Shown here piece by piece: positions 15,951 to 51,266 of a stretch of 64,000 bases of DNA. The stretch lies in NCBI RefSeq assembly GCF_004360145.1, contig NZ_ML178715.1:188069-252068 (forward strand). The letters are read 5' to 3'. Source of the DNA: Aliiroseovarius marinus. GTDB taxonomy: Bacteria; Pseudomonadota; Alphaproteobacteria; Rhodobacterales; Rhodobacteraceae. Under the pieces are notes generated by a model. It had not been told where the DNA came from, made no database searches, and worked only from the letters and a program-made list of their open reading frames with translations. Position numbers and translations under genes: made by a program. Within the stretch, counting starts at the first letter, position 1; each line of letters begins with the position of its first letter.

Positions 15951-16363
15951 GTCAGGTGACCGTCTTCGTCCATCTCCCAGAACGGGTTCATGGCATATTC
16001 CCAAAGATGCCCGTCCGGGTCAGCGATATAGCCCGAATACCCGCCCCAGAAGACCTTTTCTGGCCGGGCGATTTCCGTCGCCCCGGCGGCCAGCGCCTTG
16101 TCAAAAGCCGCATCGACATCCGCCTCGGTCGGGAAGCATTGCGCAAGGGTCATGGCGCCGGTTTTCAGCTCCTCCACAGGCTTGCGCGTGTCCTTGGCCA
16201 GCCCTTCTAGCGTGTAGAAGCCGAACTTCATGCCGTTCATGTCATAGAACACGACCTCGTCCTGTACGTTCGACGGCTCCCACCCGATCGCCTCGTAAAA
16301 CGCACGCGCACGGTTCAGGTCTTTGACGCCCAGAGTGATCAGGGTCACGCGATTGGTTTTCAT
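15947..16363 (-). CDS. VOC (glyoxalase/bleomycin-resistance) family protein
   Basis: The 138-residue product has one vicinal-oxygen-chelate fold: VTLITLGVKDLNRARAFYEAIGW at the start and GYSGYIADPDGHLWEYAMNP at the end, with E122-like and H-type metal ligand positions in the second motif. Family members are metal-dependent lyases, dioxygenases or drug-binding proteins; the reaction here is unknown. The start overlaps the recF stop by ATGA and the stop overlaps the exporter start by ATGA. Confidence 0.88.
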   Translation of the reverse strand: MKTNRVTLITLGVKDLNRARAFYEAIGWEPSNVQDEVVFYDMNGMKFGFYTLEGLAKDTRKPVEELKTGAMTLAQCFPTEADVDAAFDKALAAGATEIARPEKVFWGGYSGYIADPDGHLWEYAMNPFWEMDEDGHLT

Positions 16364-17469
16364 GGTGTCACCTCTTTGACTTCCGACACGCCGTCGGTCT
16401 CGGTCACTTCAAAATGCGCGGCGCGGTCGCCGAGTTCCTCGAACAATTCTGGCCCCGTGCCGGTCATGAAGGCCTGCGCGCCCAAGGCGCAAATCTCATC
16501 ATACAGCGCAGCGCGACGCCCCGCGTCCAAATGCGCGGCGACCTCGTCCAGCAGCAAGATCGGAGGTGCCCCGAAATCCCGCGCCAGCGCACGGCCATTG
16601 GCAAGGATTAAAGACACCAATAGCGCCTTTTGTTCACCGGTCGAACAATCCCGCGCCGCAACTCCCTTTGCGGCATAGACCGCGCCAAGATCGGTGCGAT
16701 GCGGTCCAACCAACGACCGCCCCGCCAGAAGGTCCCGCGACCGGCTTTCCGCAAAGGCCTGCGCCAGATCGCTTTCGTCACCCGGCAAGCTGCTATCATC
16801 CACCTGCACCAGCGATAGATCCGCCACGGGAAAGGCGGTTTCGGCCATGCCCTGCGCCTCTTGCAGCTGTTCCAGACAATAGGCGCGGTTTGCGATGATC
16901 CGCGCGCCGGCCTGCGCCATTTGCGCTTCCAGCGCGTCATACCAATGGGCATCCCGCTGCCCGTCCTTCAGCAAACGATTGCGTTCGCGCATCGCCTTTT
17001 CATAGGTCAAAACCGCGTCTGCATGGCCGGGCTCGAAGCTCATCGTCATGCGATCCAGAAACCGCCGCCGCCCTTCCGCGCCTTCGACCCACAGCCGGTC
17101 CATCACCGGAACCAACCAGACGATCCGCGCGATCCGGCCCAACGCCACCTGCGCCGCCGCCTTTCCGTCGATCTTTACCTGCCTGGACGCTCCGGCCTCG
17201 CACCAGGTTTCAACCTCGTGCATCTGATGAAGGCTTTGCAGCACGGCCGAGATCTTCCAGCCCACCGCTTCGGGTTTCCGGATCATCTCGTCCAGTGCAG
17301 CGCGGCGCAGCCCCCGCCCCGGGGACAGCATCGAGACCGCCTCAAGAATATTGGTCTTCCCCGCCCCGTTGCGCCCATGCAGCACAACAGGCCGCCCATC
17401 CAAGGACAGGCGGGCCAGTTTGTGGCTACGAAAATGGCTGAGTGTCAGCTCGCGAAGGGCGAGTGTCAT
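16360..17469 (-). CDS. recF: DNA replication and repair protein RecF
   Basis: An SMC-like ATPase (369 aa) that helps load RecA at single-stranded gaps. Walker A is HGRNGAGKTNILEA (about residues 33-46); the signature STGEQKALL and the Walker B region PILLLDEVAAHLD are present near the C-terminus. Two start codons are adjacent, GTG at 17472 and ATG at 17469; AGGAGG is placed 5 nt before the ATG, which I prefer. It lies 36 nt after dnaN on the same strand, the usual order. Confidence 0.95.
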   Translation of the reverse strand: MTLALRELTLSHFRSHKLARLSLDGRPVVLHGRNGAGKTNILEAVSMLSPGRGLRRAALDEMIRKPEAVGWKISAVLQSLHQMHEVETWCEAGASRQVKIDGKAAAQVALGRIARIVWLVPVMDRLWVEGAEGRRRFLDRMTMSFEPGHADAVLTYEKAMRERNRLLKDGQRDAHWYDALEAQMAQAGARIIANRAYCLEQLQEAQGMAETAFPVADLSLVQVDDSSLPGDESDLAQAFAESRSRDLLAGRSLVGPHRTDLGAVYAAKGVAARDCSTGEQKALLVSLILANGRALARDFGAPPILLLDEVAAHLDAGRRAALYDEICALGAQAFMTGTGPELFEELGDRAAHFEVTETDGVSEVKEVTP

Positions 17470-20125: not shown

Positions 20126-20731
20126 CTTACCTCGACCCAGCGTTTAGTTAGACAGCCCAAGACCGTCCTTCACAGGTACTAATATCCCATTCATATGGCG
20201 CACTTTCAGCGCACCCCTTCATAGCGACACACGAAATCCGCAGCACGCAACCAACGCGCATGCTTTAAACGCCGTGCCCAATAGCAGGCCGCCCCAAATG
20301 GTTACCCATTCTGGCGACATAGCCCAATCGGGCGTCCGGGAACTGAACAGTCTCCTCCTTCCACCCTAGCAGTTAGGGTGGCGACATGCCTTCAGGCGCG
20401 GCCTTGTAAGTTGGCGCACAACAGGCATTGGGATCTGACCTCAAAGAATCAAATCCAGATGTGGCAAAAAGGGTATTCCCCTTAAAAGTCGTGGGTTTAG
20501 CCCACTTATGTCTGATAGTCCCAAGTCGGCGAAGTGAATCGCTGCATGCAAGCTAGCAATCCCTCTGGGACTAGCGCAATAGAACTTCACGCTTGACTCT
20601 GTGATTGCCGAAACGAATCCCGAGAGCGCTTTACAAAATCAAATTTCTTGGCGGGTTTAGCAAAAAGAGCGTGCCCATTTGGACACGCTCTTTTTTTGTT
20701 TTCGAGATGCTGTTCAGCAGTAAAAACTGAT
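20126..20731. other. 606-nt non-coding region between dnaA and rpsT with several inverted repeats
   Basis: No open frame here looks like a gene. I see CCACCCTA-N5-TAGGGTGG (20361-20381), GTGGG-N5-CCCAC (20491-20505), TAGTCCCA (20516-20523) paired with TGGGACTA (20566-20573), and the terminator at 20662. I found no TTATNCACA DnaA boxes on either strand, so an origin here is not supported by that criterion. The region could carry the dnaA promoter and a structured non-coding RNA. Confidence 0.55.
20662..20698. terminator. strong terminator between dnaA and rpsT, T-tract on both strands
   Basis: GAGCGTG (20667-20673) pairs with CACGCTC (20684-20690); flanking A5 and T7 tracts extend the stem. 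On the minus strand it ends rpsT transcripts. The longer T-tract (TTTTTTTG) is on the plus strand, where no gene precedes it. Confidence 0.88.
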
Positions 20732-23673: not shown

Positions 23674-25203
23674 ATGCGTGGCCCTCACAACATCTGGCGC
23701 CTGATCCGAACCGGCGCGACCTTCCAACGAACCGGCGCAATGGGCGTCGTGCTGGACGCGATGAGCGCACCGGCATCCATCCGCATCGCCGCCCATGTGG
23801 TCGGCTGGCCCTTCGCATGGCTGGGCAAAAAGGGCGACCCCGCTTTGCCCCCCGTCACCCGCGCCATTACCGCGCTGGGTCCGGCCTACATCAAGTTCGG
23901 TCAGATCCTGTCGACGCGTCCTGACGTGGTCGGCCCGGAACTGGCAGACCAGTTGCAGTACCTGCAAGACAAGCTGCCCCCGTTCAAACAGGACGTGGCG
24001 CGCCGCATGATCGAGAAAGAGCTTGGGATCGAGATCGACACGGTGTTTTCCGAGTTTTCGGAACCCGTCGCAGCCGCCTCGATCGCGCAGGTCCACAAGG
24101 CACGTCTGGCCGACACTGGACAGGCCGTCGCCGTCAAGGTCCTGCGTCCCGGCATTGAACGCGCCTTCCGCACCGATATCGACGCCTTCCACTTCTCGGC
24201 CCGCGTGATCGAGATGCTGTTGCCGTCAACTCGCCGCCTGCGCCCCACCGATGTGGTCGAGCATTTCGAGCACACTGTGATGGGCGAGCTGGACCTGCGC
24301 CTCGAAAGCGCCTCGGCCAGCGAGTTTGCCGAGAACACTGCGCAGGATGAGGGCTTTGTCGTTCCCGAGGTGAACTGGGGCCTGACCGGCCGTACCGTCA
24401 TGACGCTGGGCTGGGGTGAAGGCATTCCGGCCAATGATCTGGTCGCCATCCGCGCCTCGGGTTTGGACATGCAGCAGCTGGGCGAACGTGTGTTGCAGCT
24501 GTTCCTGTCCCACGCTCTACGCGACGGGCTGTTTCATGGCGACATGCATCAGGGCAACCTGAAATTTGCCGCGAATGGTGACATCATCGCCGTGGACTTT
24601 GGCATCATGGGGCGGATCGACGAATACACCCGCCGCGTCTATGCCGAGATCCTGTATGGTTTCATCACCCGCAATTACCGCCGCGTCGCCGAGGTGCATT
24701 TCGAAGCAGGCTACGTCCCCGCCGACCGCGATGTTGAAGAATTCGCCCGCGCCCTGCGCGCCGTTGGCGAGCCGATTTTCGGCATGAACGCCACACAGAT
24801 TTCCATGGGCCGCCTGCTGGCCTATCTCTTTGAAGTGACCGAGAAATTCGGCATGGAAACCCGGACCGAGCTGATCTTGCTGCAACGAACCATGGTTGTG
24901 GTGGAAGGCGTCGCGCGCTCGCTATCGCCGGACATCAACATCTGGAAAGTCGCAAAGCCCGTGGTGGAAAGCTACATCTCGAACTCGATCGGGCCGAAGG
25001 CTTTGCTGCAAGACCTTGTGCACACCGCCCGCGTTCTGGCCCGCTTTGGTCCGCGCCTGCCCGAATTGGCAGAAGCCGCTTTGATCCGCCAGTCCGAGCC
25101 CCATCAGGAAGCCGACCGCGCCCGCCCGTTGCGTGCGATGAGCTATGTGACTTTGGGTGGCGGATTGGCCTTGGCAGCAGTCTGGGTCTCAACCCTGCTC
25201 TGA
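23674..25203 (+). CDS. ubiB: ubiquinone biosynthesis kinase-like protein UbiB
   Basis: The 509-residue product belongs to the ABC1/ADCK/UbiB atypical kinase family required for ubiquinone synthesis. The KxGQ motif is in AYIKFGQILSTRPD, the alanine-rich nucleotide loop is AAASIAQVHKA, and the catalytic-like segments GDMHQGNL and AVDFGIMGR follow. A C-terminal hydrophobic segment (VTLGGGLALAAVWVSTLL) probably anchors it in the inner membrane. The stop overlaps the convergent phosphotransferase gene by 15 nt. Confidence 0.95.
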   Translation: MRGPHNIWRLIRTGATFQRTGAMGVVLDAMSAPASIRIAAHVVGWPFAWLGKKGDPALPPVTRAITALGPAYIKFGQILSTRPDVVGPELADQLQYLQDKLPPFKQDVARRMIEKELGIEIDTVFSEFSEPVAAASIAQVHKARLADTGQAVAVKVLRPGIERAFRTDIDAFHFSARVIEMLLPSTRRLRPTDVVEHFEHTVMGELDLRLESASASEFAENTAQDEGFVVPEVNWGLTGRTVMTLGWGEGIPANDLVAIRASGLDMQQLGERVLQLFLSHALRDGLFHGDMHQGNLKFAANGDIIAVDFGIMGRIDEYTRRVYAEILYGFITRNYRRVAEVHFEAGYVPADRDVEEFARALRAVGEPIFGMNATQISMGRLLAYLFEVTEKFGMETRTELILLQRTMVVVEGVARSLSPDINIWKVAKPVVESYISNSIGPKALLQDLVHTARVLARFGPRLPELAEAALIRQSEPHQEADRARPLRAMSYVTLGGGLALAAVWVSTLL

Positions 25204-28880: not shown

Positions 28881-29202
28881 CGAACTGCTCACCCTGCTTG
28901 AGGAAGAGCGCCAGATGATTCTGAATGGTGATCTTCACGATCTGCCAAAACTGACCGAAGCAAAGACGGGCGCGCTGTCTGAGCTCGGGCAAACAGCCGT
29001 CACTCAACAGCAGTTGGCGCATCTACAGGCGATGGCTGCACGCAATCAAAACCTGCTTGCCGCGGCAGCAAATGGCATTCGCTCGGCGCGGCAACGGCTC
29101 GACGCCATTCGCAATCGGGATCAGGGGGTTAAAACATACACCCGTACAGGCGCCTCGGAGCTTCTGTCACGCAAGCCCTCGAACTTTGAAAAACGCGCGT
29201 GA
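28867..29202 (+). CDS. FlgN-like flagellar chaperone
   Basis: A 111-residue helical protein (NELLTLLEEERQMILNGDLHDLPKLTEAK) with the helical-hairpin pattern of FlgN, the chaperone for hook-filament junction proteins FlgK and FlgL. The start is inside the end of the rod-binding gene with AAGGAGCG upstream, so the two are coupled. Sequence similarity in this family is low, and the call depends on size, helicity and neighbours. Confidence 0.75.
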   Translation: MHKFNELLTLLEEERQMILNGDLHDLPKLTEAKTGALSELGQTAVTQQQLAHLQAMAARNQNLLAAAANGIRSARQRLDAIRNRDQGVKTYTRTGASELLSRKPSNFEKRA

Positions 29203-49812: not shown

Positions 49813-50901
49813 TTATTCGCCCAGACCCAGCACGCGGTTACGCTGGTTGATGTAGCCCACTTCGAACTGAGCCATCATGGTACCCATCTCGCGCAGTTTC
49901 GACTGGAAGTCGTCGTTGATACGCGCAGCCAGCTCCGAGTGGTCGCGGGTTTCTTCGAACACTTCTTCTGCGGCTTCACCGAAGCTGTCCCAAACATCAT
50001 CGTTGAACGAACGAACTTCTACGCCCTGCTCGTCAACCAGCTTGGCCAGATACTCGCCGTTCTTCGCGATGTTTTCTTCGTGCGATGCGGCGTGCTCTTC
50101 GTTACAGGCGGCCTCGATCACGGCACGCTCCCAGTCGGACAGGCCGTCATAGAACGCACGGTTCATGCTGAAGGACAGACCGCCACCCGGCTCGTGCATA
50201 CCAGCGGTGTAGTAGTACTTGGCCGCTTCGTAGAACTTCATGAAATAGTCGTTGTACGGACCAACCCACTCGGTCGCGTCGATGGCGCCCGACACCAGGT
50301 TTTCATAGATCTGCGAACCGGGAACCGACACGGTCGATGCACCAAGCTTCGACAGAACCTGACCACCCAGACCAGGAATACGCATTTTCAGACCTTTCAG
50401 GTCATCAGCGCTTTCGATCTCGCGGTTGAACCAGCCACCGGCCTGCGTACCGGTCGAACCAGCAGCAAGAGCTTTCAGGCCAAACTCGCCCGAGACTTCG
50501 TCCCACAGTTCCTGACCGCCACCAAACTTGATCCACGCATTCCATTCAGGCGTCGACATGCCGAACGGCACCGAGGTGAAATACGCAAAGCCGGGGTGCT
50601 TGCCGGTGAAGTAGTATTCAGCGCCGATATAGGCCTGAGCGTTACCCGATGCGACTTCGTCGAATACGTCGAAAGCCCCAACACGTTCGCCGGACGCAAA
50701 GTATTCAACATTCAGTGCACCGTCGGACAGTTGGCCGATACGGGCGGCCAGACGCTGCGCCGAAATACCCAGACCCGGGAAGTCCCGCGGCCAGGTCGAT
50801 ACGATGGTCAGGGTTTTGCCACTTTGAGCAAGGGCGGGCGTTGCAAGAGCGGTTGCACCAGCGCCCAGCGCTGCACCCTATAGAAACTTACGGCGTTCCA
50901 T
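49813..50901 (-). pseudogene. TRAP substrate-binding protein DctP (TakP-like) with in-frame TAG at codon 8
   Basis: One frame of 363 codons encodes a TakP-like TRAP binding protein: mature part TIVSTWPRDFPGLG, GGWFNREIESADDLKGLKMRI, the family signature DATEWVGPYNDYF, and end. The N-terminus reads MERRKFL, then TAG at 50880-50878, then GAALGAGATALATPALAQ, which is clearly the rest of a twin-arginine signal peptide. The ATG at 50901 has GGAGGAGG upstream. Everything after the stop is intact. The next in-frame ATG is at 50571, inside the folded domain, so re-initiation would not give an exported protein. A single change from a lysine codon (AAG) would explain it; sequencing error or suppression remain possible. 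Confidence 0.9.
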
Positions 50902-51004
50902 ATTGGAATTTCCTCCTCCGAGTTCTTAATTTTGTTCTTCTGAGACGCACAGGAAAACCAATGGCCCGCCCGCGCTGCCACGGTAATTACTACGCAGCTA
51001 GATT

Positions 51005-51050
51005 TAGATTTCAATTGGAATCTACTTAACTGGTAAAATAATCTTACCAG
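51005..51050. promoter_or_regulatory. two adjacent palindromes upstream of the TRAP operon
   Basis: TAGATT-t-CAATTG-g-AATCTA (51005-51024) is an 18-of-20 palindrome. CTGGTAA-N7-TTACCAG (51030-51050) is a perfect 7-bp inverted repeat. They lie 104-150 nt upstream of the dctP start. They could be binding sites of one or two regulators, none of which can be named. Confidence 0.5.
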
Positions 51051-51209: not shown

Positions 51210-51247
51210 TGGACATTTCATTTTCTGAACTATATGTGAGCGCTCAC
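51210..51247 (+). promoter_or_regulatory. MarR gene promoter with a perfect GTGAGCGCTCAC operator
   Basis: TGGACA (51210-51215) and TATGTG (51233-51238) make a 17-nt-spaced promoter-like pair. The perfect 12-bp palindrome GTGAGCGCTCAC (51236-51247) overlaps the -10 end and lies 20 nt before the MarR start. This placement suits autorepression by the MarR protein. Confidence 0.55.
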
Positions 51248-51266
51248 CATGGAAGGAGTCCGTCCG

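Follow-up and report, generated by a model that had tools for sequence, protein, structure and literature searches.

An in-frame amber codon in the leader of a TakP-like TRAP binding-protein gene of Aliiroseovarius marinus, probably a recent loss

Introduction

Strain-specific nonsense pseudogenes are of a known kind in bacteria. It has been argued that in-frame stops are often tolerated by bacteria and that, where purifying selection acts on the gene, many of them are read through (PMC7918605); the large-scale part of that study centred on stops common to two or more species.

TakP (SmoM) of Rhodobacter sphaeroides (PDB 2HZK and 2HZL) is a described 2-oxoacid-binding TRAP receptor. Its cation-binding residues, as given in PMC1839085, are Gln156, Glu214, the main chain of Trp215 and Glu240. 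The genus Aliiroseovarius includes an oyster pathogen (PMC4796133), and a search of a limited paper library found no paper that mentions Aliiroseovarius together with a TRAP transporter. Here we describe a TRAP transporter locus of Aliiroseovarius marinus, in a stretch of 64,000 nucleotides that was analysed as a whole (the window), in which the binding-protein gene, dctP, carries a TAG at its eighth codon.

Results

Minus-strand translation of positions 49813-50901 gave 363 positions, in which codon 8 is a stop and the frame is otherwise open up to the terminal stop (Table 1). The start of dctP reads MERRKFL-TAG-GAALGAGATALATPALAQ on the minus strand, the TAG appearing as CTA at 50878-50880 of the plus strand, and the signal is, by its motif, presumably of the twin-arginine type. 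The AGGAGG of the ribosome site ends ten bases 5' of the ATG, and the site is strong. Both permease frames are open and full length when compared with genome G018. A preliminary description of the locus, made from the letters alone, had placed the amber codon at this position, frame and length of dctP and had judged the ribosome site and both permease genes to be intact; it was right on all of these points. Owing to the TAG, the export signal is not translated in frame with the mature DctP. Beyond the stop, the first in-frame ATG, GTG or TTG is codon 111, within the mature protein, and an in-frame CTG is found at codon 12, shortly past the TAG. No ribosome-site motif was found before any ATG, GTG, TTG or CTG candidate at codons 9 to 140.

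Table 1. Features of the dctP locus, in window coordinates
Feature	Position	Strand	Remark
dctP, TakP-like TRAP solute-binding protein gene	49813..50901	minus	362 codons and terminal stop, broken at codon 8
In-frame TAG, codon 8 of dctP	50880..50878	minus	within the presumed twin-arginine-type signal
Ribosome-binding region AGGAGGAAATTCCAAT	50902..50917	minus	upstream of the dctP ATG, intact
dctQ-like small permease subunit, 330 aa	48707..49699	minus	PF04290 (DctQ), frame open
dctM-like large permease subunit, 884 aa	46041..48695	minus	PF06808 (DctM), frame open
Operator-like inverted repeat TGGTAA-N7-TTACCA	51031..51049		about 148 bases upstream of the dctP start

The frame that follows the stop matches PF03480 with 168.1 bits against a cut-off of 23.4. 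The dctP product also exceeds the cut-off of NF037995 and falls under that of TIGR00787. In a phmmer comparison, residues 3-326 of this frame matched TakP (2HZK) with an E-value of 4e-61, and the structure matches were headed by 4PET and 5CM6, which slightly outscore TakP, with 2HZK and the ketoacid-binding protein 7UG8 coming after them. The cation residues of TakP, as listed in PMC1839085, align with Gln, Glu, Trp and Glu in the dctP product, in an alignment counted by eye that speaks to residue identity only; the two proteins are alike in this respect. The loci are alike too, with dctQ and dctM genes directly downstream in each (PMC1839085 for the TakP locus). Unlike TakP, dctP is stopped at codon 8 here, and its mature protein is only moderately similar. 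Taken with the PF03480 match over its length, the cation and 2-oxoacid residues of TakP and the adjoining DctQ and DctM genes place dctP in the DctP-type family. Given these structure matches and the cation-holding residues that the dctP product shares with TakP, it is reasonable to regard the system as a 2-oxoacid importer, its substrate probably being a compound such as pyruvate.

At its C terminus the DctM-like permease is extended by about 330 aa with a weak resemblance to coiled-coil proteins, the SMC and SpiroCoCo matches being under their cut-offs; the protein is of equal length in G018 and is conserved in G002. Upstream of dctP, 18 of the 19 genus loci, the window among them, have the inverted repeat TGGTAA-N7-TTACCA in exact form; L015 departs from it by a single mismatch, and the letters of the spacer vary. 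We take the repeat to be a putative operator, probably of a GntR-type regulator. Further upstream, a perfect 12-base palindrome, GTGAGCGCTCAC, occupies 51236-51247 directly ahead of a divergent MarR-type gene at 51249, and was also present in three (L007, L010 and L012) of 19 other loci checked. The MarR gene is followed by genes for an RND adaptor and an RND permease.

The genome holds six PF03480 genes, and each of the five besides dctP adjoins DctQ and DctM genes of its own. A search for another orphan dctP, as the preliminary description had proposed, was run within the PF03480 family and found no orphan or spare binding protein in the genome; rescue of the locus by an orphan binding protein was rejected, all five other genes lying beside their own Q and M genes. 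Because no spare PF03480 protein was found, the permeases of the broken locus are, as far as the genome sequence tells, probably left without a partner. The earlier remark that they would be useless in that state fits the pairing of the five other PF03480 genes with their own permease genes. On contig C4 of this genome (G000), two DctM matches with identical scores (16051-16818 and 24235-25002) lie 8.2 kb apart, which suggests a recent tandem duplication.

Orthologues of dctP were present in 18 of the 20 same-genus genomes searched, at an identity of at least 73%. In every one of them a sense codon stands in the place of codon 8 (Lys in 14, Thr in 4) within a nearly identical leader, so the observation is not a chance one. 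Comparison of codon 8 among orthologues, which had been put forward as a check, thus showed no stop in the relatives examined. Orthologues starting downstream with another signal peptide, an arrangement that the preliminary description had considered, were not seen among these 18, which all keep the MERRKFL start upstream. The codon is likewise a sense codon in four out-of-genus loci with a readable start (L018, L027, L028 and L029); the alignment covered L007 to L031 of the set L007 to L036, and L030 and L031, which do not align at the N terminus, were left uncounted. From 586 relatives matched in a public genome collection the best 80, all named loci, were kept. Each of these 80 is free of stops from an in-frame Met up to the mature protein, and 78 of the leaders fit a simple RR-type motif, the other 2 being variants. 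These 80 loci overlap the 18 same-genus genomes in at least three cases (L037, L038 and L039), and L042 and L043 represent a single contig, going by name and length. The inactivating change is therefore missing from sister genomes, as in a recent nonsense pseudogene.

The protein past the stop is identical in two genomes, G018 and G002, the former being about 94% identical to the window over 43 kb. In dctP, 31 sites differ from G018 and/or G002, namely 30 synonymous third positions and the stop itself. Against G018, dctP has a dN of 0 and a dS of 0.057, the medians for 39 gene pairs being 0.214 for dS and 0.032 for dN/dS. With a dN of 0 and synonymous differences only, dctP must have been strongly constrained until recently. 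Its dS is the third lowest of the 39 pairs, and the two lower pairs are probably wrong-frame ORFs; dctP is also close to that of G002, though its flanks are less close. The low dS may stem from codon bias, as in a highly expressed gene, or from past exchange between species.

The 39 pairs were what remained of 44 ORFs in the shared 43 kb once five had been set aside: two that matched in part, one that reached 98% coverage, one whose alignment had gaps and a 239-aa ORF. The pairs at 20648 and 29022, whose dN/dS exceeds 1, were kept in, and are probably wrong-frame ORFs. An internal stop was found in dctP only. In the 239-aa ORF that was set aside, the stop sits in a 15-codon extension ahead of the window's own start, apparently an alternative-start extension. 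When dctP was tabulated for six genomes and read by eye, the window lineage had only two clear private changes besides the stop, both synonymous, and no private missense change. With so few private changes the loss is not firmly datable, and the undecayed state of the gene is a poor guide to age, with a probability of about 0.06 under neutrality (about 0.24 squared, a rough hand estimate).

Rfam gave 40 tRNA matches in the genome. ARAGORN typed 39 of them and assigned a CUA anticodon to none; the remaining match contains the 3' half of tRNA-Lys. Neither the window nor any locus searched yielded a CUA tRNA with ARAGORN, and a gapped pattern for tRNAs with this anticodon had one match in the genome. 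A tRNA-Tyr was not identified in the genome by Rfam with ARAGORN, by patterns or by BLAST, and patterns found none in G018. When the tRNA-Tyr of Escherichia coli served as a BLAST query against the window's genome, G018 and G011, all hits were fragments of other tRNAs or short stretches; for G018 and G011 the Rfam tRNA matches were listed by place alone. The tRNAs for Thr(UGU), Ile(GAU) and Ala(UGC) are, like tRNA-Tyr, missing from the 39 typed. The non-detection of tRNA-Tyr is probably due to a limit of the searches or to a stretch absent from the sequence searched. The proposed check for an amber suppressor tRNA is thus answered in part: no CUA anticodon occurs among the 39 typed tRNAs, and the survey is incomplete because tRNA-Tyr was never identified, so that a suppressor derived from it is still conceivable. 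Release factor RF1 is present, above its curated cut-off. TAG terminates 6 of the 39 compared ORFs, the same six in G018, one of which (at 29022) is probably a wrong-frame ORF.

Separately, the 3' half of tRNA-Lys was observed as a perfect repeat of 54 bases on contig C1 of this genome (G000), at 1525-1578 of L117 and 225-278 of L155, about 15.8 kb apart. The matching tRNA arm has two exact matches in the genome and one in G018. The repeat resembles a scar left at the attachment site by an integrated element of 15.8 kb.

Discussion

The preliminary description had offered three readings of the amber codon, namely a very recent loss, an assembly error and read-through of the stop. Recent loss is the best supported of these, because the stop is found in no relative examined, the rest of the frame is undecayed, and no other internal stop occurs in the 39 pairs; a base-call error is possible and is not favoured, and read-through gained no positive evidence. 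We consider it probable that a private and very recent nonsense mutation, natural or acquired in culture, in the first codons of dctP has disabled a TakP-like 2-oxoacid TRAP importer. Ribosomes starting at the intact dctP site would make a peptide of seven residues and then meet the stop. Because no in-frame ATG, GTG or TTG occurs until codon 111, no exported binding protein would be expected, and the importer would be non-functional despite its intact permease genes, whose expression would probably also be lowered through polarity. The absence of DctP and the loss of uptake should follow, as we infer from the nucleotide sequence.

An error of base calling or assembly, or a minor allele taken into the assembly, would leave the gene intact in the cell. 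The lesion is a single substitution with no more decay in dctP, and the assembly is a draft of 33 contigs, both of which are compatible with such an error. However, the substitution lies outside any long homopolymer, and 38 of the 39 genes compared across the 43 kb around it are free of internal stops, most of them under strongly purifying selection, as the median dN/dS indicates. Stops are also missing from 40 of the 42 ORFs whose recovered length was 98% or more, the exceptions being dctP and the 239-aa ORF with its apparent alternative-start extension. General sequencing noise was not seen in the 39 gene pairs, and there is no other clear break in the 43 kb. For this reason an error is not the favoured reading, and we hold it to be unlikely, although it deserves more weight than the readings that follow. 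The lack of missense changes does not separate these accounts, being expected under read-through or a base-call error as well.

Read-through of the amber at some level, by a near-cognate or a suppressor tRNA, would keep dctP functional, perhaps with lower output. The frame past the stop has no missense change relative to G018 and G002, as such a reading would have it, and the argument of PMC7918605 that many such stops are read through speaks for it as well. Against it, the stop occurs in none of the relatives examined (0 of 18 in the genus and 0 of the 80 named loci that ranked best among 586), and recoding by a conserved stop was rejected on this ground. TAG also serves as the terminator of six of the 39 compared ORFs, RF1 is encoded, and the typed tRNAs include no CUA anticodon, in a survey that lacks tRNA-Tyr, Thr(UGU), Ile(GAU) and Ala(UGC). 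We therefore regard read-through as very improbable. The more specific idea that the lineage reads UAG at low efficiency and so retains a little of a normally abundant binding protein, with the leader stop as a dial on transporter output, is a speculation to which we give still less credence. If the codon were read through, the locus would be a clean natural case in which to measure amber read-through in a marine alphaproteobacterium, and nothing points that way. Translation might instead begin past the stop, at the CTG of codon 12 for instance, or the real start might lie elsewhere with another signal peptide. The CTG is not preceded by a ribosome-site motif, and a signal starting there would lose its arginines; a product begun at codon 111 would have no signal and an incomplete fold, and the upstream MERRKFL is kept in all 18 same-genus orthologues. 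An alternative start was rejected, as no candidate from codon 9 to 140 has a ribosome-site motif, and this is the least credible of the explanations, with almost no weight left to it.

As a recent loss, the dctP stop has little import beyond the strain: an importer kept by most of the genus would be silent here, and metabolic models that count the dctP transporter as working would be wrong for this genome. The cases in PMC7918605 are like dctP in having a single in-frame stop with the remaining frame under purifying selection. In contrast to the large-scale set of that study, the dctP stop is found in only one of the genomes examined and lies at the far 5' end. The stop is most likely an ordinary gene loss and not a new way of reading the genetic code. 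With strain-specific nonsense pseudogenes dctP shares a single private substitution, undamaged neighbours and the absence of more decay, and nothing sets it apart from them save the location of the stop inside the signal peptide.
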